Assembly: GCA_017647145.1 (NCBI GenBank)
Contig: JAGCLD010000016.1
Location: 1-64,000, forward strand
Direction: 5' to 3'
Length of the DNA: 64,000 bases
Source: Paludibacteraceae bacterium
Lineage (GTDB): Bacteria > Bacteroidota > Bacteroidia > Bacteroidales > Paludibacteraceae
The translations under genes and the position numbers were made by a program. Of this stretch, positions 1 through 53,646 are shown one piece after another (within the stretch, counting starts at the first letter, position 1; each line of letters starts with the position of its first letter). The notes under the pieces were generated by a model. That model searched no databases. It worked only from the letters and a program-made list of their open reading frames with translations, and had not been told where the DNA came from.

Positions 1-13
1 ATACAAGTAGTAT

Positions 14-57
14 ACACGTAGGATACACGTAGGATACACGTAGGATACACGTAAGAT
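14..57. repeat. 11-bp tandem repeat (4 copies)
   Basis: Four direct copies of ACACGTAGGAT at 14-24, 25-35, 36-46 and 47-57; the last has one substitution. No spacers are present, so this is not a CRISPR array. Three further arrays with the same 11-bp period but different units occur at 24240, 51848 and 53581. Confidence 0.9.
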
Positions 58-295
58 AAAAATATGTAGCAGCAACAAAAAAGGTAGCTCAAAAACAAAA
101 AATATACAAGAAACACCATCCTCCAGCCAGTTCAACAACCACATTTTAACAACTCTCCTCATCCAAAACTAACTAAAAAAAGCACTGTCCCCGCTCCAAG
201 GGGGACGAGTGTAGCGTAGTGTACACGGAGCGGAACGGAGGGGGTCTCTTTATGTAAAAAGTTACACTAATGCTCTCCAACCAGTGAAACGAGTT

Positions 296-407
296 CCCTA
301 TAGTTCACATAGTAAACGACCTGTAGCAAGCGAAGCGAGCATCCTGTAGTGAGTGAAACGAACGTCCTGTAGGCTCCGCCGTCCTGTAGCTCATATCGTG
401 AGCGTCC
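296..407 (-). repeat. Modular mini-hairpin array A
   Basis: Read on the minus strand this is a chain of modules of the form GGACG-core-CTACA. Unit lengths are 23, 17, 23, 23 and 23 nt. The cores are different short inverted repeats, for example GCTCACGATATGAGC and GGCGGAGCC. On the plus strand the CCTGTAG linkers start at 320, 343, 366 and 383. One module shares the string ACGTTCGTTnCACTCACT with arrays near 14.3 kb and 53.0 kb. Confidence 0.75.
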
Positions 408-590
408 TAACACCTACCAGACACGTAGGATAAAGATTGGAAGAAGACAGACATTACTATCACAATTTTTGCAAAGAACTAGAGAATATATTATAAGTTT
501 ATCACTGAGGCGGTTTATAAGGATTGACAACAACTGAGCCCGACTAAAGCCCACGTATCACCGATGAGAAATAAAATGAAACAAACAAAA

Positions 591-621
591 AAAAGAACGT
601 CGGGAATGACGTTCTTTTTTT
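591..621 (-). terminator. Rho-independent terminator after tRNA-Gln
   Basis: AAAAGAACGTC (591-601) pairs with GACGTTCTTTT (608-618) around a GGGAAT loop. The A/T tracts on both sides make it usable in either direction. It lies just 3' of the minus-strand tRNA-Gln and probably ends that transcript. Confidence 0.8.
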
Positions 622-13936: not shown

Positions 13937-14012
13937 GACTTCGTAGCTCAGTTGGTAGAGCAACTGACTCTTAATCAGTGGGTCGAGAGTTCGAGCCTCT
14001 CCGAGGTCACCA
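13937..14012 (+). tRNA. tRNA-Lys (anticodon CTT)
   Basis: A 76-nt cloverleaf with acceptor GACTTCG/CGAGGTC, D arm GCTCAGTTGGTAGAGC, and anticodon arm ACTGA-CTCTTAA-TCAGT with anticodon CTT. The T arm is GAGAG-TTCGAGC-CTCTC, and an encoded CCA occupies 14010-14012. It reads AAG codons. It is followed at once by a hairpin terminator, so it forms a one-gene unit. It borders a short accessory patch, which is common for tRNA genes used as insertion sites; no att duplication was found. Confidence 0.96.
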
Positions 14013-14014
14013 AA

Positions 14015-14048
14015 GAAGAATCACTTGAAAGGGTGATTCTTCTTTTTT
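14015..14048 (+). terminator. Terminator after tRNA-Lys
   Basis: AGAAGAATCAC (14015-14025) and GTGATTCTTCT (14033-14043) pair, followed by TTTTT. The stem starts just after the CCA end. Confidence 0.9.
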
Positions 14049-14283: not shown

Positions 14284-14334
14284 GGACGTTCACGAAGTGA
14301 ACTACAGAACGTTCGTTGCACTCACTATAGGGAC
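14284..14334 (+). repeat. Modular mini-hairpin array B
   Basis: Two 23-nt modules. The first is GGAC-GTTCACGAAGTGAAC-TACA with a perfect GTTCAC/GTGAAC inverted repeat. The second runs from GAACGTTCGTT to ACTATA. It then ends in GGGAC. The second module matches one module each of the arrays at 296-407 and 52918-53009. Confidence 0.75.
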
Positions 14335-23943: not shown

Positions 23944-24289
23944 GAATCACAGATAGATGTGATTACACGAAGCATTGGTATGTAGTTCGTAAAATTCCTA
24001 TCCTTTGACAGTGATGCACCTGCTACAGACATAACCATCTAAAGACTTGAGAAGCGGCAAACACAATTCTCTTTTCATCCGATTTATAGGCAAGCGATTA
24101 CAAGTGGCGTTTGCTCTGGTTCGTGCAGGCAAAGTTACGGAATAATTTTGTATTTTCTATGAGCGCCAAGAGCAGAACCGGCAAAAGCATTGGCTACAAC
24201 GCTGAGTTTATGTTGTTTATAACTTAATTGTATCTGAATAACCTACTAATAACCTACTAATAGCCTACTAATGTTTGCTGCAATAATGC
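23944..24289. other. Intergenic region with weak promoter and 11-bp repeat
   Basis: No coding frame. It has a minus-strand box TAACTTTG at 24130-24137 (possible GtrA promoter, -33 not recognisable) and the 11-bp tandem repeat at 24240-24272. The remainder is unremarkable. Confidence 0.5.
24240..24272. repeat. 11-bp tandem repeat (3 copies)
   Basis: AACCTACTAAT at 24240-24250 and 24251-24261, then AGCCTACTAAT at 24262-24272. It lies 3' of the minus-strand esterase gene. Confidence 0.85.
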
Positions 24290-39601: not shown

Positions 39602-42600
39602 TTATTCTACCACAGCTTGTAATGTTTCAGTTCTTTGTTGGCTTTTCACTCTCACGAAATAAACACCTGCTTGACCCAAGTGGTAAGCCCTTTGGTAAGC
39701 CGTTGTCGTTTCGTTCACCAGCAGTTTGCCCACAGCATCATACACCCACACTTGAGCCTGTTGTGGCAAGTTGTTCACATAGAGCATGCGTTGGTGTGAT
39801 GTGACATAGCTGTGTCCATCCCTACCCTCCGTGATGTCGGTAGGCGCCTTAGGATGGAGCGTCACAGCAAGCGTGAATCGTCCGCTTCCGTCGGTCTTTC
39901 CGGTAGAGAAAGAGTAGTCCTCTTGCATCAAGTTGATGTATGCACTTTCCGTAGCATCATGCAGCCACACTTCCTTCACACGGCTGAGGTCGCTTCTGCG
40001 GTCGAGTGAGAAGGTATATTCCCCATTTTGAGCGGTGTATGTACCCATGCTTATCGGCTGAGCGGCTTGCTCCTCGTTGATGGCATTGAATGCACGTTGT
40101 TGCTTGTCGGCACCAATGGTATAGAGCACCGGCTTGGTGTAGTAGCGATAGTAGTCGCCAAACCACTTGAAGAAGTCGGCATTCATTTCATAGTCATCGG
40201 TGTATTTATTATCGATGACAAGAGAAGTCTTGTCGCTCTCGCCCTTGGCATTGGTGAGAGACACACCGACAATTACCGGTTCGTCCGGTTCATTCACGCT
40301 GCTTGGCGCACGTCGAGCAATGGAAGCACGTCCACGATTATCGCCATCAAACATCACATCTTTTTTCTCTCCATTGTTTTCAGTTTCCGGATTTCCCACT
40401 TGCACAAAGTAAGACGTGAACGGCAACAAGTCAGTTTCTGACACCAGCACTTGGTTGTAGGCACTCCATCCGCCATCAACCGGAACTACCACGTATGGGC
40501 AATTTTGTGTTACTCCATTCCATTCGCCTGAGTCTTCCCAGTAGCCAGTTGAAGTATTAAGCACGTACTCACCACCCAGACGAAGTCCGTTGAAGGTATT
40601 GAGTTTATCCTTTTGGTAGTAGTTTAAGTAAGGATTACCCACGAGGTTCCATCCCTTGTGTGTGGGTCGCATATCTTCGTCCACTCCCCAAGCATATACC
40701 GGAACAGTCTTGTCCGTTCCTGCAACCTCTTGTGCCAGCACTTCTTTACTCATCGGGAAGCGGAGTTCGTATTTCACTTTAGACTTCGTCGGATGTCCTG
40801 CAATACCCACAATGTATCCCACGCCCGCTTTAAGAGTTGTGCCATGGAACTCAGCCCAGCATCCTCCGCTTTGTGTAGCCGCACGCTTTTCACCATCATA
40901 AGTAGAGAGGAACCAGTCCACGCCATACTTAGCCGGAGTTCCATCCACCCATGTCACATCCTCGATGTCGCAGTCATACGGGAGCGTGAACCAATGCCAG
41001 TTCTCTGCATTCACGCGCACATCCACATAAACAGGCTTATCAGAAGAAGCTGTGATGTTGAGGTTACTGCTTAATTGAGCATTAGCAACAGCATCTTCCA
41101 CACGACGGAACGAAACAGAATTTACTTTATAGTCATTACCCGTTTCAGGGACAATCAATTGACCACCCGGATAAACATATACGTTACGCACTTGGTTGAC
41201 GTCGTTAGGTGTTGCAGCTTCTGCTTTAGTGAGTGTTGCTCCGTTCAGCACAACCACATCACAGGTAGAGCAACGTGTCTTACTTGCATCCAAGTCACCA
41301 TTAATTATATTGCTAAACAAAGCGTCAGTAGTAGTGTTAGCAGCAGTTACCAAGATTGGTACTTGAGCTGTTTGTTCAGTGAGCACTGTTCCATTTACCG
41401 GGTCATTAATTTGCACTTGGATGTTCAGACATGAATATTGTGCCACATTATCAATTGTCAATTTATACAAGTTTTCCTCCGGTTTGTAGTTAAATTGATC
41501 CAAAGTCTTAGAGTCATCCAAAGTTTCAAATTCACGGTAATACTTATTATAGTCAAATCCGCCAACATAGCCCAAACCATCACAAGTGGCCTCTTTCACT
41601 TCTTCATCATTACTATTTCCACTACCAATGCGGAATCCTGCCCATTCAGAACATAGGGTAACAAAAGTAGAAGACAAATCACCACATGCAGCACCAGCTT
41701 CAGCTTTATTATTAGTTACTGCATTTTCTCCGCTTGTTACGGTGTTTTTACGAATCAACAAACAACGGTTGGTAGAGATTGCATAATCTGTTTCCACCTC
41801 ATCCGTTTTGATATTATCACCATTGAAGCAGAAGAAAGAAGATTGGTCATTAACACTAATTCCTTCAACGTATAATCTAACATCCTCATCTCCACATTCA
41901 CTAGATTTACCTATTTTGGTCAAACTACCATCGTTGCTATATGTAGAACCTATCACATCGATAAGTACATCATCTTTATACAAACCGATACTACCACGAC
42001 CGGAGAATGCCAACACACTCTTATTCGCCAACTTATGCCATTTTTCATATCCTTCTTGCTCTTGAGCACAAGGTTCTGCCGAATGATCAGGGATGTCGTC
42101 TTCATTACTATCAGTCACATCATAATACACCAAAATAATTTCCTCATTAGGAGCTACTGTTCCTTTAGTTTGGCCAAATTGAGATAAATCCAAGGCACCA
42201 TTTTCAGATTTAATTTCATATCCACTCAGGTCTATCGGAGCTCCGGTTCCATTATAGATTGCCAACAATTTATTTTCCCCATGTGCTTCAAAATATTTCG
42301 AGAAGAACAATTCTGTAGCCATTACGCCACTACCGGTGTTATGTTCCACTTCACCTTTGATGACCACTTTTGGGTTTACATTTTCATCTTTATCCACTTG
42401 AATAATGATTCCATCAGTCATCCATTCTACGATGTCGATATCAGGACCGGTAGTCTTAAATTCTCCACTCAACGCACATTCGGCGGCATCAACAGGAGTG
42501 ATTGTGAAGGTATATTCGGTGGTTTCTGCCAATCCATCAATCAGCACAGGCGATGCTGTACTTGCTACGCTTTTCACTAAAGTGCTATTAGACTTCAGAT

Positions 42601-45600
42601 ATACATCCACCTTACATGCAGCCACATTGGTCCACGCAATGGTTGCCGTCACACGCGCCGCTGACACCATCACATTAGTGGGTTGTTCCGTACATTCCAC
42701 TTCCAAGAAACGGAACACATCTGCTCCACTCTTGTACATACCGAAGTTGCTTCCATACATTCGCAGACGACGATTATCCTCAGTCACGGCAGTACAAGCA
42801 ATGGTGTATATCTCTCCATCCTCAGTGTAGATATTCCATTCATATTGATCATCACTACTATCGGCAGAAGCCCAGTTGCGTATACTAGTGTTATTTGTTG
42901 CGTCACTTGCCCACAAGCAGGCTCCATTGTTTCCAACAAATCGCACTGCTGTACCATTTACACCGAAGCGGTCTTTATGCACAGCTTTCAGCGCATACAA
43001 GTGAGTTTTAGGAGCTGCCACAACTGCACTCTTATCCCCATTCAGACTCACATTAAAGCCTGGATAAACTCCGGCTTCCGGCATATTGGCCGGTAGTGCA
43101 TAATAGGTAGATGCCTTATCCACTACTACTGCAAATGTCTCTGGCAAACTGCGACCGTTTAGTGTAAAGGTTGTTGTAGTCAGAGTTTCATCTCCGTTCT
43201 TTGCGGTGAGAGTTATGGTTGCATCTTCTTTAGTGTCAAAAGCATTTGGAGTGTAGGTCACAACTACATTATGTTCCCCATTACCCACATTGTCCAGTTG
43301 AGTCACCACAAAGTTTTCGTTAGCGCATGTACCAGTGATAGTAGCATTGTTTGCAAATGACTTAACTGCAATAGGCACATTTACTTTCACGCTCTGAGCA
43401 TTAGATGATGTTACCCACATACCCTCTTTGGCTACGATAGTAGGGCCGCAACTTGGTGAGGTAGTGTAGTTGTAGCTACCGCTGGTAGCCACTTTCACTT
43501 CGTCCAAGAAGAAACGACTGTCCGATGCTTGGAAACCTGCGAAAGTTATACGCGTGGAAGATGTACCGCCCGTGATGGTAACTTCATAATCTTTCCATGC
43601 ACCTTTGGTCAGTGTAACACTTGTTTGGCTAAGACTTCCACCTCCTTCAATAGAGAGCACCAAGGTTGTTTTCTCGCCAGAAGCATTCCATGCAGCCGCT
43701 TTAAATGAGAGAGTTGCATTTCCACTAAGATTAGTCAAAGCCGGAGTTATAACATAACCTTTCTTTGATCCACTTCCTAACTTCATACATTTATATGCAC
43801 CAAAGAAATTATCACCATCCCAACCATCATTATCGACATAGGCGTCACTGGTAGCAATAGAACCGCTCCATTTACCATCATTTCCGCCTGTTCCTTCTGT
43901 ATCATCAAACGACTCATAGAAAATTGTTTCGCCAGCACCTGAAGTGGTGGCTTTTTTCCATACTGCATAATATGTCACATCATTTGTAATTGCTGGAGTA
44001 GATATGAGCGTTGGTTTGGTTGCATCCTCTGTTGCTTTTTCAGTTTCTGTCCATCCTTCAAATATATATCCGTCGCACGCATAGTTGGCAGCAGATGGGG
44101 CATCCGGCAATTCTAAGTTTGCTCCACTAAGATATTTATCTTCTTGCACAACATACACTTGTCCGCTTGCCATGAAAGTAACGGTGTATAGTTCTGCCCA
44201 GTGTGCATAATAGGTTACATCCGCTGTTGGTTTGTTGGTCTCACCCACTTCCGTAACTTGTGTCCCATCAGTAGGGGCAGTAAACCAACCTGTGAATTTA
44301 TATCCAGCACGAGTTGGGTCAGTCGGCATGGCAATTTCTTCACCATCGTAAATATAATTGCTTGTAGTAGCCTCCGGACAATCAGTATAGTTTTGATCCC
44401 ATGTGATTGTGATATTTTTGGCCGTCCAAGATGCATAGAAAGTTGTGTTGTCATCCACGGTTACTGTGGCTCCGGCTGCATAGGTTTTAGTTCCGTCTGA
44501 CCATCCGGTAAAGTTATAGCCCGTCTTAGTAGGAGTTTGATTACACAAAGTAAATTCAACACCTTTAGTTACCTTTTGCGACTCACAAATTGCACCTGTG
44601 CCACCATTGAGGTCGTAGTTTACTGTAGCTTTTGTATTGTCACAAAGCGTGGTATAAGCGGTGTAAGTGGTAGAGGATAAAGTTCCAGCAACAGTTACCT
44701 CCAACAGAACATCATCAATACGTGCATTAGCACTATTTGATGTATTTTTTATGGTTATAGTACAGTTTTCAAGACTTACATTAGAATTTGTAAGTAACCA
44801 TTCGCAATTAGAGCCACTAACTTTAATATCATTATTGGGTGATACTGATACCGAAAACGTAGTTTTATTTGATTTAAATGAAAGAGACATCTCTTGTGCA
44901 CCAGCTACAGGTACATTATAAATATACCAAGAACCATTTTCTTTTGACAACAACAATTCTGGGCTTTCTCCTTTTGCATAGTTTTCATTATAAGCTTTGG
45001 TGTTATTATTTGACTGATTATAGGTAATAGATGCTTCTCCATAAATAGTTGTTCCTGCACCTATACCTGCATCGCTAGGTTTTTTTGTTTCAAAATGGTT
45101 AAACTTTTCTGCCCATAAAACCGTACCTACTTTAGCGCCACTACCACTTCCCGGGATTTCATCTGCCCACACCGCATGATAAGTTACATTTGCCGTTACT
45201 GGAGGGAAGTCCGCAAGTACTTTACATAGCTTTGAGGGGGGGGTATCAGTCTCGGTATCAATCACTTCTGTCGTCCATCCAACAAAGACTTTAGTAGAAC
45301 ATCCGGCAGGAGCAGCGGGTACATCAGGGAGGGCTTGAATAGAATTACCACTTGTAATCTCAGTTGTAAACATGTTATCACCTGTCGGAGTAATCGGTTC
45401 GCCATTTACCATCCATGTGACGGTGTAAGTAGGGAGAGCTCTCCATTGTGCAGTGAATACCACATCCTCGTCTGGCATAGTCATACCGGATGTATATTTT
45501 GGGGTCCACTCTACAAATTCATAACCATTACGCACTGGTTTTTCCGGTGCCTCAATGAGTTCACCATATTCGTAAGTTTTAACGATATTGCCTGCATTAC

Positions 45601-48571
45601 CATTCCAATTACCTTCGGCAGGTTTCCATGTGACGGTGTGGGTATTAATGGTGAAAGTAGCCTTAATCTCGGCATCTTCAGTCAGCGTATACACATCGCC
45701 GGAAGTGAAAGGTACATCATTCACCGTCAGTGATGCGAGTGAATATCCTTCATTAGCCGTAGCAGTAATGGTCAACAGACATGTATGCGCCAAATCTCTG
45801 TCACCAGCAGTAAAGTCCTTAACCTCTGTTTCATCGTGATGGATGTATTGCACAGTGATTGTACCATTGGTTGGTTCAATAATCTTGGCATTCCACATCT
45901 TCATGCCCTCAGTGATATCGTAGTTGTAGAAGTCGCAGTTGTTGTTGTTATCATCACCACCCTTGGAGCGTAAAGTTGTAGGCGTAACTGTTACTGCTGC
46001 TAAAGTGACAGGAAGCGTTTCAAATGCTGTAGCTTGTGTAGCCGCCCAATCATCGCCAGTTTTTGTTTTATAAATAGAGTTGCCATCGGACCAACAACCA
46101 TTATTAGCAATATGCCAAACATCGAAGTTATCATATTTGCCTGTTGTTACCTTATAAAGATTAGCAGTACCAGGCACCAATGTCATCGCATGTTTGCTAT
46201 TATGATCACTATGTCCGATACGGTAATAGATTTTGTTTTTACCATCTGCGTTATTTGAATTTGTCCAGTTGAGCACATTATTATCCAAATAAATCACTTT
46301 ACCGGCAGCTTGATGAGCAGAAGGATAAATTATAGATACTTTGAGTTTTGTCAGATCGGAATAGTTGACATTAAACACATAGGTACCAAACTTTGTAGTT
46401 TTTAAACCGCAATATGCATCTGCGTTCATTTCCACATCTGTGCACCATTCGCTATGAATATCTCCGTTGAAGCCGTACCAGTTGCCGCAACCATCAGTGA
46501 TTTTGAAATAGTAAGTGTAGTTTGCATTTTGAAATTCAATATTGATAGTAGCCGTGGTGCCCTCCCCTTTCTTCAATGGCGCATTAAAAACATCCGATTT
46601 ATTGTCATAGTACACATACAATTGTAGGCACTTCACATCATAGTCAGCAATTGCGTCGCAATATACTTCAGAGGAAACAACACATCTGTAGTTGCCCGCA
46701 TCTGCAATTGTAGCTGCATCCTTGGTATAAGTGGTTGTGGTTGCGCCTGCTATATCAGTCCAATCTGAGCCAACTAATTTCTGCCATTGATAAGTGTAAG
46801 GTACTGCGTCAGCAGGAGGAGTAACGGTTAGAGTGATAGTTTCACCAGGGAAGAAATGGTATGTACCACTGATTGACGCAAAACCTTCTAATGACATACA
46901 AGCATCACAATCAGTGCGGTATCCCGTCAGGGCTTTTTCGGTCCAATGGGCAGTAACAGTTTGATTACCAGTAGTACCTTTGGCAATAGATGCAGGATCC
47001 CAACCAGTGAAGTTGTAACCCTTTGGTAAATTGGTAAGAGCTGCGAATGTTATTTCATCCTCAATAGTGTAAGTTGTTGGGTTCGCATTAGCTGCATCTT
47101 TTGTATCGTTGTATGTGATGGTATATTCGATTGGTTCCCACTTTGCATAGAGATTGATAGCCGTGCTGTTGAGACCTGTAAGCGTTTGTTTGTCAGTATA
47201 CATTGCATTACCATTGGCTGAAGTTGCCCAACCAGCGAAATTGTAACCCGTGCGAGTGAATGGACATGCAGGAAGGGTGTAACTAGTCTCTTCTGTGGTA
47301 TATTCTTTAACCTCATTTGGAGTACCGCCATTAGGGTTCAAAGTAATGGTAGATTCGGTGGTACATGAGGGAGAGGTTGTGTAATAAACGGAATTTCCTC
47401 CTGAATATGTCACAGAAAGATAATTTAAATATAATCGGCTATTTTTATCTGTGCCTTTACATGTAAATAGAACACTTGATGCTTCAATCTCGCTTAAAGT
47501 AAATTTACCATTCGCTGCAATTGACTGATCAGAACTTTCTGTACCTCCATCAATTTTGTATGAAACAGATGTTTTCATAGCAGATCCAATAGTGATACTA
47601 GTTAGTGTCTTATCATTGTTACCAGTAATAGTTAGTGTTCCTCCGTTTTGGTAAATGCGGATTTGGTTATCATTAACCGCAGGAGCAGTACCAGCAGATC
47701 CTTTAGCGGCTTCATAACTAACATTTGCATCATTGTTTACATTTCCACTGACGGCACTAAACGAAGACATCGCAACCGTAGTACTTCCGCCAACACCTTC
47801 ATCGGTATGACTATAGACTGCATAATAAGGACCAGCACCATCAACTGTAGTTACTAAATCCATTACTGCGGTATTATTTTGGGCGGGACGCTGAGTTTTA
47901 CTCCATCCTTCAAACACCCACTCGGGCGAACAACCTCCTTGATCTCCCGTGCCGTCTATATCATCCAATGCTGTACCTTCTTCAACATCATTAATAGTTT
48001 CTGTTACACCATTACGACTAAGGGTAACATTGTAAGTTTGAGCTGCAGCTTTAGTATAAGTAATAACAATCTGAGTAATTCTGACTTGAGGATTACTATT
48101 AGTATTATTCGTTGAAACCAATGATACGCTGTTTCCTTCCGTCAATGTACCAGACCAAGTCTTGGATGAATAGGAGCCCGTACCTGTTTTTATCGCAAGA
48201 ACACCTGAATTTTCAGATGTATGAGTAAAAACTATTTTGCTTATTGTGATGCCTTTTTTAGGGGTAAATGAAATCGTACCACCATTGGTCGCACTCTTTA
48301 CACCATATATGCGCAAACCACCAGAAGTATAATAGGTCGGGGCTGTTCCTGCGCTGTTTTTTGCTAACGATATTGTTGCTGATGTCGCGGTAATTGATGA
48401 TTGTACAGTTGCATTACTCCATCCAAAATCAGACAATGTAATGGTCTCTGTCTCTCCCCACGCATTTGCACTGACCATCAGTGTTAGTAACATAACAAGC
48501 ATAAGGCGGAGGGATGCCAAGTTAGTTTTTGCGAAATTGTTATATATAGTATGTAAAGTTTTCATAATCAT
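39602..48571 (-). CDS. Giant InlB-repeat surface protein with T9SS sorting domain
   Basis: 2989 residues. A signal peptide ends near residue 39 (VSANAWG). At least six InlB B-repeats (Listeria-Bacteroides repeat, Flg_new) follow, seen by GYNFAGWAT/LYAKW (about 455-485), GYNFTGWDP/TAHW (about 520), GYEFVEWTP/FTAQW (about 1025), GYNFTGWSD/FYASW (about 1357), GYKFTGWFT/YYAHW (about 1427) and GYIFEGWTE/YYAVW (about 1504). An Ig-like domain lies near 550-630, a choice-of-anchor-J-like domain near 1555-1695 (IFYESFDD), a lamin-tail-like domain near 2087-2200 (AIYNGTGAPIDLSGYEI), and a type A T9SS sorting domain in the last 70 residues (VWVYDAVGKLLVNE, GVYFVRVKSQQ). It should cross the outer membrane by the type IX system and be attached to the cell surface. 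Probable adhesin or matrix protein. Confidence 0.88.
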   Translation of the reverse strand: MIMKTLHTIYNNFAKTNLASLRLMLVMLLTLMVSANAWGETETITLSDFGWSNATVQSSITATSATISLAKNSAGTAPTYYTSGGLRIYGVKSATNGGTISFTPKKGITISKIVFTHTSENSGVLAIKTGTGSYSSKTWSGTLTEGNSVSLVSTNNTNSNPQVRITQIVITYTKAAAQTYNVTLSRNGVTETINDVEEGTALDDIDGTGDQGGCSPEWVFEGWSKTQRPAQNNTAVMDLVTTVDGAGPYYAVYSHTDEGVGGSTTVAMSSFSAVSGNVNNDANVSYEAAKGSAGTAPAVNDNQIRIYQNGGTLTITGNNDKTLTSITIGSAMKTSVSYKIDGGTESSDQSIAANGKFTLSEIEASSVLFTCKGTDKNSRLYLNYLSVTYSGGNSVYYTTSPSCTTESTITLNPNGGTPNEVKEYTTEETSYTLPACPFTRTGYNFAGWATSANGNAMYTDKQTLTGLNSTAINLYAKWEPIEYTITYNDTKDAANANPTTYTIEDEITFAALTNLPKGYNFTGWDPASIAKGTTGNQTVTAHWTEKALTGYRTDCDACMSLEGFASISGTYHFFPGETITLTVTPPADAVPYTYQWQKLVGSDWTDIAGATTTTYTKDAATIADAGNYRCVVSSEVYCDAIADYDVKCLQLYVYYDNKSDVFNAPLKKGEGTTATINIEFQNANYTYYFKITDGCGNWYGFNGDIHSEWCTDVEMNADAYCGLKTTKFGTYVFNVNYSDLTKLKVSIIYPSAHQAAGKVIYLDNNVLNWTNSNNADGKNKIYYRIGHSDHNSKHAMTLVPGTANLYKVTTGKYDNFDVWHIANNGCWSDGNSIYKTKTGDDWAATQATAFETLPVTLAAVTVTPTTLRSKGGDDNNNNCDFYNYDITEGMKMWNAKIIEPTNGTITVQYIHHDETEVKDFTAGDRDLAHTCLLTITATANEGYSLASLTVNDVPFTSGDVYTLTEDAEIKATFTINTHTVTWKPAEGNWNGNAGNIVKTYEYGELIEAPEKPVRNGYEFVEWTPKYTSGMTMPDEDVVFTAQWRALPTYTVTWMVNGEPITPTGDNMFTTEITSGNSIQALPDVPAAPAGCSTKVFVGWTTEVIDTETDTPPSKLCKVLADFPPVTANVTYHAVWADEIPGSGSGAKVGTVLWAEKFNHFETKKPSDAGIGAGTTIYGEASITYNQSNNNTKAYNENYAKGESPELLLSKENGSWYIYNVPVAGAQEMSLSFKSNKTTFSVSVSPNNDIKVSGSNCEWLLTNSNVSLENCTITIKNTSNSANARIDDVLLEVTVAGTLSSTTYTAYTTLCDNTKATVNYDLNGGTGAICESQKVTKGVEFTLCNQTPTKTGYNFTGWSDGTKTYAAGATVTVDDNTTFYASWTAKNITITWDQNYTDCPEATTSNYIYDGEEIAMPTDPTRAGYKFTGWFTAPTDGTQVTEVGETNKPTADVTYYAHWAELYTVTFMASGQVYVVQEDKYLSGANLELPDAPSAANYACDGYIFEGWTETEKATEDATKPTLISTPAITNDVTYYAVWKKATTSGAGETIFYESFDDTEGTGGNDGKWSGSIATSDAYVDNDGWDGDNFFGAYKCMKLGSGSKKGYVITPALTNLSGNATLSFKAAAWNASGEKTTLVLSIEGGGSLSQTSVTLTKGAWKDYEVTITGGTSSTRITFAGFQASDSRFFLDEVKVATSGSYNYTTSPSCGPTIVAKEGMWVTSSNAQSVKVNVPIAVKSFANNATITGTCANENFVVTQLDNVGNGEHNVVVTYTPNAFDTKEDATITLTAKNGDETLTTTTFTLNGRSLPETFAVVVDKASTYYALPANMPEAGVYPGFNVSLNGDKSAVVAAPKTHLYALKAVHKDRFGVNGTAVRFVGNNGACLWASDATNNTSIRNWASADSSDDQYEWNIYTEDGEIYTIACTAVTEDNRRLRMYGSNFGMYKSGADVFRFLEVECTEQPTNVMVSAARVTATIAWTNVAACKVDVYLKSNSTLVKSVASTASPVLIDGLAETTEYTFTITPVDAAECALSGEFKTTGPDIDIVEWMTDGIIIQVDKDENVNPKVVIKGEVEHNTGSGVMATELFFSKYFEAHGENKLLAIYNGTGAPIDLSGYEIKSENGALDLSQFGQTKGTVAPNEEIILVYYDVTDSNEDDIPDHSAEPCAQEQEGYEKWHKLANKSVLAFSGRGSIGLYKDDVLIDVIGSTYSNDGSLTKIGKSSECGDEDVRLYVEGISVNDQSSFFCFNGDNIKTDEVETDYAISTNRCLLIRKNTVTSGENAVTNNKAEAGAACGDLSSTFVTLCSEWAGFRIGSGNSNDEEVKEATCDGLGYVGGFDYNKYYREFETLDDSKTLDQFNYKPEENLYKLTIDNVAQYSCLNIQVQINDPVNGTVLTEQTAQVPILVTAANTTTDALFSNIINGDLDASKTRCSTCDVVVLNGATLTKAEAATPNDVNQVRNVYVYPGGQLIVPETGNDYKVNSVSFRRVEDAVANAQLSSNLNITASSDKPVYVDVRVNAENWHWFTLPYDCDIEDVTWVDGTPAKYGVDWFLSTYDGEKRAATQSGGCWAEFHGTTLKAGVGYIVGIAGHPTKSKVKYELRFPMSKEVLAQEVAGTDKTVPVYAWGVDEDMRPTHKGWNLVGNPYLNYYQKDKLNTFNGLRLGGEYVLNTSTGYWEDSGEWNGVTQNCPYVVVPVDGGWSAYNQVLVSETDLLPFTSYFVQVGNPETENNGEKKDVMFDGDNRGRASIARRAPSSVNEPDEPVIVGVSLTNAKGESDKTSLVIDNKYTDDYEMNADFFKWFGDYYRYYTKPVLYTIGADKQQRAFNAINEEQAAQPISMGTYTAQNGEYTFSLDRRSDLSRVKEVWLHDATESAYINLMQEDYSFSTGKTDGSGRFTLAVTLHPKAPTDITEGRDGHSYVTSHQRMLYVNNLPQQAQVWVYDAVGKLLVNETTTAYQRAYHLGQAGVYFVRVKSQQRTETLQAVVE

Positions 48572-51847: not shown

Positions 51848-51880
51848 AGTGGTCCCGGAGTGGTCCCGAGGTGGTCACGG
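51848..51880. repeat. 11-bp tandem repeat (3 copies)
   Basis: AGTGGTCCCGG (51848-51858), AGTGGTCCCGA (51859-51869), GGTGGTCACGG (51870-51880). GC-rich, unlike the other 11-bp arrays in the window. Confidence 0.8.
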
Positions 51881-51913
51881 GGAGGATAGGACGGTCGCGG
51901 GGCGAGCTGGAGG

Positions 51914-51969
51914 GATATGAGGATATGAGGTTATGAGGATGTGAGGTTATGAGGTTATGAGGATATGAG
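51914..51969. repeat. 8-bp tandem repeat (7 copies)
   Basis: Seven consecutive units of G(A/T)T(A/G)TGAG form, e.g. GATATGAG and GTTATGAG, ending 20 bp before the -33 box of the hemolysin III gene. Confidence 0.85.
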
Positions 51970-51989
51970 GATAGGGGCGAGGTGGGGGA

Positions 51990-52809: not shown

Positions 52810-52886
52810 TGTAAGATAAATTTTTCATAGTTAAGGTTTAGGTTAATGGCGGAAGGTTATTGTGAAATAGCCTTCCGTCTTTTTTA
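52810..52886 (+). ncRNA. Putative small RNA of about 75 nt
   Basis: A full promoter (52772-52804) and a strong intrinsic terminator frame about 75 nt without an open reading frame. The terminator stem is GGCGGAAGG (52848-52856) with CCTTCCGTC, extended inward by TTAT/ATAG, then TTTTTTA. The 5' part (AATGTAAGATAAATTTTTCATAG) is A/U-rich and mostly unstructured. There is no similarity that I recognise to known RNA families. Exact ends are estimates. Confidence 0.6.
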
Positions 52887-52917
52887 TCCCCCATCCCTTC
52901 CTGCCGGATAGTTTAGA

Positions 52918-53009
52918 GGACGCTGCGCTACAGGACAGTCATAGACCTACAGGAGGCTTTGCTGTAGAACGTTCGTTACACTCACTGTAGGACGGCTTCG
53001 CCTGCAGAC
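52918..53009 (+). repeat. Modular mini-hairpin array C
   Basis: Five modules of 15, 19, 15, 23 and 17 nt joined by TACAGGA, TGTAGAA and TGTAGGAC linkers: GGACGCTGCGCTACA, GGACAGTCATAGACCTACA, GGAGGCTTTGCTGTA, then a 23-nt unit with GTTCGTTACACTCAC, then GGACGGCTTCGCCTGCA. It begins about 30 nt after the small-RNA terminator. Confidence 0.75.
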
Positions 53010-53580
53010 ATAACTCTCTCATATACAAGTAGTAACCGCACTATCGCCCTTTAAGTAGCGTAGCGAAGCCTTTAAGATATCACTACAACCGAGCACATAG
53101 CGATAAATTTATATATTCTATTCGCTACACAAACAAGCATATCTCTCTCCCACACAAACACTAACCACACTGTCGCCTTTTAGGGGGCGTAGCGGGGGGG
53201 GTAACATTAGAGTGGGTTTAGCGCCTCGACACGACGGAGTCCCGAGCGTAGCGGAGGGGGATAACCCCAGCGAGGTCCATAGCGCAGCTCTTATGAACGT
53301 AATGCTGTAGGGAAAAGTGCGAGTAAGCGAAAGCAGAATCAAGTTCGCTTAAATTATGCTGAGCGTGAGCACTTTATATAAACGGCGTGCCGTGTCCGCC
53401 AATTATATTATTAGATTTATTAGATTCGCTATTTACTTATTTACTCTCGGACACGGCACGCCGTGTCCCTACTTCCCACTACTTTCCCCTACTTTCTCCC
53501 CAGCCCCAAGCCTCCTACCAAACACCTATCATCTCCGCGACCATCTCGCAACCACTACCTAGGATATAGATACAAAACAG

Positions 53581-53635
53581 ATAGGAACTAGATAGGAACT
53601 AGATAGGAACTAGATAGGAACTAGATAGGAACTAG
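53581..53635. repeat. 11-bp tandem repeat (5 copies)
   Basis: ATAGGAACTAG five times without interruption. It ends 11 bp before the -33 box of the envelope operon promoter. Confidence 0.92.
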
Positions 53636-53646
53636 ATACCATCAGA

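Follow-up and report, generated by a model that had tools for sequence, protein, structure and literature searches.

Three hairpin arrays in a Paludibacteraceae contig

The window analyzed in this study is a stretch of 64,000 nt (contig JAGCLD010000016.1, positions 1 to 64,000) from the draft genome of a Paludibacteraceae bacterium (GCA_017647145.1; 2.0 Mb in 47 contigs; hereafter G000), whose gene context was obtained with a simple ORF caller. It contains three arrays of short head-to-tail units (Table 1). The first-pass annotation of this DNA had described them as built of GGACG-core-CTACA units, and direct reading of the sequence located all three to the base; one module, GTTCGTTnCACTCAC, was indeed found in each of them. 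All three arrays lie past the predicted terminator of the preceding gene. The leader of array 3, AGTTTAGAGGACG, is common to arrays of other Paludibacteraceae. Array 1 is embedded in a composite intergenic repeat, for which blastn matches of 83-91% were obtained at five further sites of the genome, with the modules combined differently in at least five places.

Table 1. Positions of the arrays, their cores, and other features in the window
Feature	Position	Strand	Remarks
Composite intergenic repeat	1-432	no strand	holds array 1; 11-bp ATACACGTAGG minisatellite, unique-looking spacer, CTCCGTTCCGC module, hairpin array, terminal ACACGTAGGATA
Minisatellite	1-58		spacer; period 11 or 8
Degenerate sixth module ACTCGTTTCACTGGT	280-294	-	after array 1; identical tail in a second genomic copy (L123)
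Array 1	295-408	-	five units and a degenerate sixth; contig start, tRNA-Gln side; sequence reading and chain detector
Core GTTTACTATGTGAAC	303-317	-	array 1
Core GCTCGCTTCGCTTGC	326-340	-	array 1
Core GTTCGTTTCACTCAC	349-363	-	array 1
Core GGCGGAGCC	372-380	-	array 1
Core GCTCACGATATGAGC	389-403	-	array 1
Predicted terminator	588-621	-	between tRNA-Gln and array 1
Predicted terminator	14012-14045	+	between tRNA-Lys and array 2
Array 2	14284-14333	+	two units; linker CTACAGAACG
Core GTTCACGAAGTGAAC	14288-14302	+	array 2
Core GTTCGTTGCACTCAC	14311-14325	+	array 2
Minisatellite	24237-24272		spacer; period 11 or 8
Gene for a 2989-aa protein	39605-48571	-	five stretches of Listeria-Bacteroides repeats; weak Ig-like and lamin-tail matches
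Minisatellite	51848-51973		spacer; period 11 or 8
Predicted terminator	52848-52879	+	between HlyIII-family gene and array 3
Array 3	52910-53007	+	five units; leader AGTTTAG
Core GCTGCGC	52922-52928	+	array 3
Core AGTCATAGACC	52937-52947	+	array 3
Core GCTTTGC	within 52952-52967	+	array 3
Core GTTCGTTACACTCAC	52971-52985	+	array 3
Core GGCTTCGCC	52994-53002	+	array 3
Minisatellite	53560-53639		spacer; period 11 or 8

Structure of the unit and copy number in the genome

The unit can be written as AGGAC-[G arm loop arm' C]-TACAG, with consecutive units overlapping by two letters. Core lengths in G000 are mostly 7, 9, 11, 15, or 16 nt, resulting in units of 15, 17, 19, 23, and 24 nt. A constant part of approximately 10 bp is thus combined with a variable, self-complementary part of 7-16 bp, whose stems are mostly 2-6 bp long and variable in sequence. 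The linker contains no stop codon in any of the forward frames. The unit pattern reported at first pass holds with regard to its conserved linker and needs revision in two respects: the linker is degenerate, the tail being CTACAG in only 44 of 75 units (CTGTAG in eight and CTATAG in seven), and the shared module GTTCGTTnCACTCAC falls short of a perfect palindrome, with covariation around a pair of conserved mismatches.

A genome-wide pattern search, as the first-pass annotation had proposed, revealed many further copies. In the 2.0-Mb genome there are 36 exact copies of the linker CTACAGGACG, compared with three occurrences of a reversed-pattern control. Linked unit pairs (AGGACG-N(3-19)-CTRYAGGACG) were found 34 times versus none for the control, and single units (AGGACG-N(3-13)-CTRYAG) 59 times versus nine. 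By using a detector that tolerates one mismatch per unit, 75 units in 21 arrays were identified in the window and in the stretches around pattern matches, so that these counts are lower bounds. Many arrays or linkers are located less than 2.5 kb from contig ends (L111, L114, L116, L120, L123, L126, L129, and the window start, on contigs C3, C10, C13, C18, C22, C36, C42, and C14), as if composite repeats had broken the assembly there.

Self-complementarity of the arms

The claim that a conserved linker joins free but self-complementary arms, a pattern of compensatory change, was examined by scoring arm pairing without the fixed outer G-C pair. In G000, 152 of 219 arm positions are paired (0.694), against 0.249 ± 0.030 in shuffled cores. 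A fairer control is to take the 3' arm from another unit of equal length, since the cores have common composition and ancestry; this arm-swap control gave 0.481 ± 0.025, and the observed excess is approximately 8 sd. The pattern is even stronger in the relative richest in arrays (G062), where 220 of 231 positions are paired (0.952) compared with 0.301 in shuffled and 0.590 in swapped cores, and where 64 distinct cores were found. The claim therefore holds against the proposed comparison with shuffled sequence. Altogether, 140 distinct cores were collected over four genomes, and they have no consensus stem.

The cores of G000 fall into near-perfect palindromes (such as GCTCACGATGTGAGC, GGCGGAGCC, and GCTGCGC) and an imperfect class represented by GTTCGTTnCACTCAC. 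The latter has constant mismatches at positions 3/13 (T.C or T.T) and 4/12 (C.T), while the pairs at 2/14, 5/11, and 6/10 vary. For 15 cores of this class, which were chosen by their pairing pattern and compared with a shuffle control that ignores relatedness, the covariation score was 0.567 versus 0.300 for shuffled cores. When six cores from relatives and one from array 2 of the window were included, the score was 0.552 versus 0.299; none of the 500 shuffles reached this value, which is also much higher than that of slid versions. In view of this selection and this control, the covariation amounts to support, short of proof.

For a perfect 15-mer, folding with DNA energy rules gave approximately -5 kcal/mol whichever strand was used; neither strand of the imperfect core GTTCGTTTCACTCAC had a stable fold. 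An unusually stable bottom-strand hairpin formed by tandem sheared G.A pairs was considered for the imperfect type; it is unsupported by the energy model and remains conjecture. An excess of GNA loops on one strand was also rejected, as the strand preference is inconsistent (8 top versus 2 bottom in G000, 7 versus 12 in three relatives).

Distribution among genomes

We scanned approximately 85,000 species with the pattern CTACAGGACG-N(7-14)-CTACAGGACG and obtained 36 stretches. The stretches whose cores are palindromic belong to metagenome-assembled genomes titled Paludibacteraceae or uncultured Bacteroidales and, where a source is named, mostly from the ruminant gut. Among 200 Paludibacteraceae genomes, the pattern was matched in 19, several of which represent chance or another repeat (G108 and G123). 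Hairpin arrays are present in G000 and in several species of genus g22 of the same family, including G062 (RGIG7219), which agrees in contig positions and counts with G149 of the family set; G061 and G063-G068 were placed by sequence similarity only. They were not found in two congeners of G000. The leader AGTTTAGAGGACG and the linker are identical in both genera, though Mfd of G000 is only approximately 59% identical to Mfd of G065. A second linker, CTGTAGATCG, bears similar cores (GCTTCGC, GCCCTGCGGGC, GCTCGCTTTGCTCAC, and others, including the imperfect type) in G061, G062, G066, and G068, and pairs linked by it were absent from the other 12 genomes tried.

A wide distribution was rejected, because the scan matches outside Bacteroidales have cores that by eye are unlike the hairpin series, with the exception of a 12-bp repeat in Candidatus Poribacteria (OY282374.1). 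In this genome, tandem arrays of (GCGCTAYAGRAC)n occur at no fewer than five loci (L038, L045, L048, L059, and L066). They have the linker letters of the present family, CTAYAGRACG, and may be either related or coincidental. The matches in G108 and G123 (genus g32) belong to a different, non-hairpin repeat: dispersed sequences such as AGGACG-ATGGGAAAGAAA-CTATAGGACG without a hairpin core, often in pairs 133 bp apart (L215 and L216). Carriage by phages was likewise dismissed: of two IMG/VR pattern matches, L241 has cores that are not palindromes and L240 contains no array according to the detector.

Arrays inside genes of relatives

In-frame insertion of palindromic repeats into genes is familiar mainly from Rickettsiales and some REP-rich genomes. 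In G061, G062, and G068, a mechanical test placed 20 of 57 arrays of at least two units within long ORFs, in both orientations. In G000, one array (L128) falls close to where a mechanical ORF ends; the remaining arrays appear to be intergenic. The in-frame arrays of relatives were found in mfd, ygiQ, tilS, aroE, mtaB, rho, and genes for NlpC/P60 and GH20 proteins. Arrays in mfd occur at one position in four species. The sequence enclosed by the conserved flanks is GGCTCTGCGAGCC in two of these and GGCGCAGAGCGCC in the other two, that is, a T-A to G-C exchange together with a new loop. Orthologue alignment, in which the empty sites come from genus g22 and not from the species of the window, revealed an insert in aroE of G062 and another, unlike it, in G068; aroE of G061, G066, G198, G023, G118, G185, and G222 has no insert. 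Similarly, tilS has an insert in G062 and a remnant in G068, and lacks one in most of these genomes.

Pfam domains are still recognized in several of the array-bearing proteins. The domain match spans the insert in TilS and YgiQ, and only the N-terminal domain was matched in AroE. In the AlphaFold model of G062 AroE (mean pLDDT 84.5), the insert forms a loop at residues 145-162 with pLDDT below 50. The in-gene arrays in this other genus are located at loops that tolerate extra residues. The loop of YgiQ (L190-L201) has a different repeat in nearly every species, either hairpin arrays of the two linker types or microsatellites such as GGAAAAT. The variable N-terminal region of Rho is partly made of arrays in G062 (L152, 2642-4651, minus strand) and G061 (L163).

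Two comparisons indicate how arrays multiply. A four-unit array of approximately 81 bp (AGTTTAG...CTATAG) is present with one mismatch in two G062 genes, one with a weak AAA match (L146) and the other ygiQ (L151). The genes and the flanks of the two copies are unrelated; therefore, arrays are copied as blocks. By eye, no target-site duplication was seen at this single pair. Within a near-identical flanking block, G062 has seven units and G068 has three; two copies of a 34-bp dimer account for the difference, and units therefore also duplicate in tandem.

A probable family of modular palindromic repeats

Block dispersal, insertion in genes, and tandem growth together constitute the behavior of REP/RPE-like palindromic repeats, which the first-pass annotation had not named. 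On balance, we consider that the arrays probably represent a non-autonomous, modular RPE/REP-like family whose copies are passengers rather than regulatory RNA. The best reading is that the family itself is new and its kind already known. In its unit, a mini-hairpin with arms that vary freely but stay complementary is enclosed by a fixed linker (AGGAC / TAYAG). As the data above show, such units are dispersed, are copied as whole multi-unit blocks, and multiply when one or two of them duplicate in tandem; the same kinds of core occur on two linkers, and in another genus arrays lie in frame within genes. Copying may proceed via a single-stranded or replication-fork hairpin intermediate, which would select for self-complementarity whatever the letters and spare the linker; the linker, in turn, might be the part recognized by a cellular or element-borne enzyme, or provide microhomology for annealing. 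A DNA-hairpin step during spread is the likeliest reason for the self-complementarity of the arms. In the genome of the window, the arrays would be tolerated passengers in spacers past terminators. Some points count against this reading: no mobilizing enzyme was found; no target-site duplication was seen at the copied block; the evidence of empty sites comes from genus g22; and the GTTCGTTnCACTCAC class has conserved mismatches and folds weakly by DNA energy rules, although the pairs flanking these mismatches covary, something that pairing in DNA alone would have no obvious reason to maintain.

A bolder version is possible, though we doubt it: a mobile repeat of a new kind, whose identity resides in the linker and self-complementarity and not in the hairpin letters, with cores swapped as cassettes between linkers and copied by an unrecognized hairpin-dependent enzyme or replication mechanism, and which in relatives supplies new peptide loops in frame, among them the variable region at the N terminus of Rho.

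Apart from this bolder version, a Bacteroidales family with free arms and fixed linkers makes the hairpin requirement and the sequence requirement, which are usually confounded, separable, so that spread of such repeats without a dedicated transposase becomes a testable question. It also shows that AroE, TilS, YgiQ, Mfd, and Rho gain extra loops from hairpin repeats.

A purely mutational origin would need no transposition enzyme, since slippage at the linker would multiply units and quasi-palindrome template switching would keep the arms complementary. The two-unit tandem duplications, the many period-8 and period-11 minisatellites in array-bearing spacers, and the different simple repeats held per species by tolerant loops such as that of YgiQ all agree with this. 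Replication slippage and quasi-palindrome correction can explain tandem growth and arm matching, but not the sharp-ended four-unit block in two unrelated genes; nor do they explain the copies dispersed throughout the genome and the linker and leader common to two genera. We consider this origin alone unlikely.

We also compared the arrays with REP sequences moved by a Y1/RAYT transposase (TnpA-REP), including REPINs and BIMEs. Known REPs carry a GTAG tag, and in Escherichia coli their mismatches are required (PMC8266576, PMC3733652). The bottom strand of the present units reads 5'-TGTAG-hairpin-CGTCC, with a GTAG foot ahead of the hairpin (CTACAG in the 44 units of G000 noted above), and one core class has conserved mismatches as in E. 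coli REPs. Both families consist of dispersed, mostly intergenic mini-hairpins and form mosaic arrays. However, the arms are not conserved and the foot varies: among 151 units of G061, G062, and G068, ATAG (CTATAG) is found in 67 and GTAG in 59, and ACAG accompanies the CTGTAGATCG linker. The arrays are head-to-tail, an order that is rare in REPs, and PF01797 has no match in G000, G062, G063, G066, or G068. Mobilization by such an enzyme thus appears very unlikely. Weak partial PF01797 matches were obtained in G061, G064, G065, and G067; the match in G023 was better. The Y1-like protein of G061 (L106, 754-1863, minus strand) has 369 aa and a long C-terminal extension, and its gene adjoins one whose product by eye resembles a type I restriction specificity subunit.

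The first-pass annotation had likened the pattern to that of structured RNA or protein-bound hairpin DNA. RNA elements kept by selection, such as 3' UTR stabilizers, attenuators, or protein-binding RNA, would agree with the location of many arrays downstream of genes and with the covariation of the imperfect class around its conserved mismatches (0.552 versus 0.299, 0/500). However, the 21 arrays show no strand bias relative to neighboring genes, no Rfam family was matched (the window gave only two tRNAs), and cores, lengths, and unit numbers vary freely by locus. The position of the window arrays past terminators, together with the lack of a consistent strand relation and the inclusion of array 1 in a recurring composite, agrees better with passengers in DNA that is transcribed weakly or not at all than with RNA elements, and the arrays in long ORFs of relatives, in either orientation, are in-frame passengers as well. 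Neither alternative of the earlier proposal has thus been demonstrated, and we regard a selected RNA role as highly improbable. A note of caution follows for similar cases: covariation in repeats need not imply functional RNA.

Comparison with known repeat systems

The known CGTC tag stands at the 5' end, as in the Neisseria dRS3 repeat; in the present units, the bottom strand has CGTC(C) on the 3' side of the hairpin, and there is no consensus stem of 8-9 bp. Tagged REPs comprise GTAG and CGTC super-families, the latter including RPE-4 and RPE-6, without a known transposase and with described intragenic members (PMC3733652). CGTC-tagged families have been reported mostly from alpha-proteobacteria, whereas the present family belongs to Bacteroidales. 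The Rickettsia RPEs are similar in that they are palindromes located both between genes and in frame within genes, where they encode short extra peptides (PMC3733652), and differ in having stems of 8-9 bp with a consensus instead of head-to-tail units of 15-24 bp with free arms and a fixed linker.

The BrickBuilt MITE of Porphyromonas gingivalis is likewise an intergenic element of Bacteroidales and contains a spacerless 23-nt tandem repeat, but it never lies within genes, is bounded by terminal inverted repeats of the IS5 type, and includes leader/tail segments (PMC4596501). Moreover, a single sequence recurs, imperfectly, in its 23-mers, whereas the present units are variable hairpins. A MITE of this type was rejected, as the ends of the AGTTTAG...CTATAG block are not inverted repeats and no duplication was seen (one pair, by eye). 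CRISPR arrays, which have constant repeats of at least 23 bp and unique spacers, do not fit a constant part of about 10 bp with a self-complementary variable part, and for both CRISPR and DNA-uptake sequences the architecture and copy number are wrong. Palindromic elements of organelles, for example in Volvox carteri, are also reported to spread as apparently selfish DNA, in eukaryotic organelles (PMC2670323), and palindromes within coding sequence are reported from Nematomorpha (PMC6649704). The present family is set apart from each of these systems, because at least one defining feature (consensus stem, tag, transposase, or terminal inverted repeats) is missing, and it still works like RPE/REP. 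Paludibacteraceae were not named among the best matches in the open-license literature on palindromic repeats.

Other features of the window

Besides the arrays, the spacers of the window contain the minisatellites listed in Table 1, with the sequences ATACACGTAGG, AATAACCTACT, AGTGGTCCCGG, GGATATGA, and AGATAGGAACT, some of which adjoin hairpin arrays elsewhere in the genome. The 2989-aa protein encoded in the window is probably a large surface protein.
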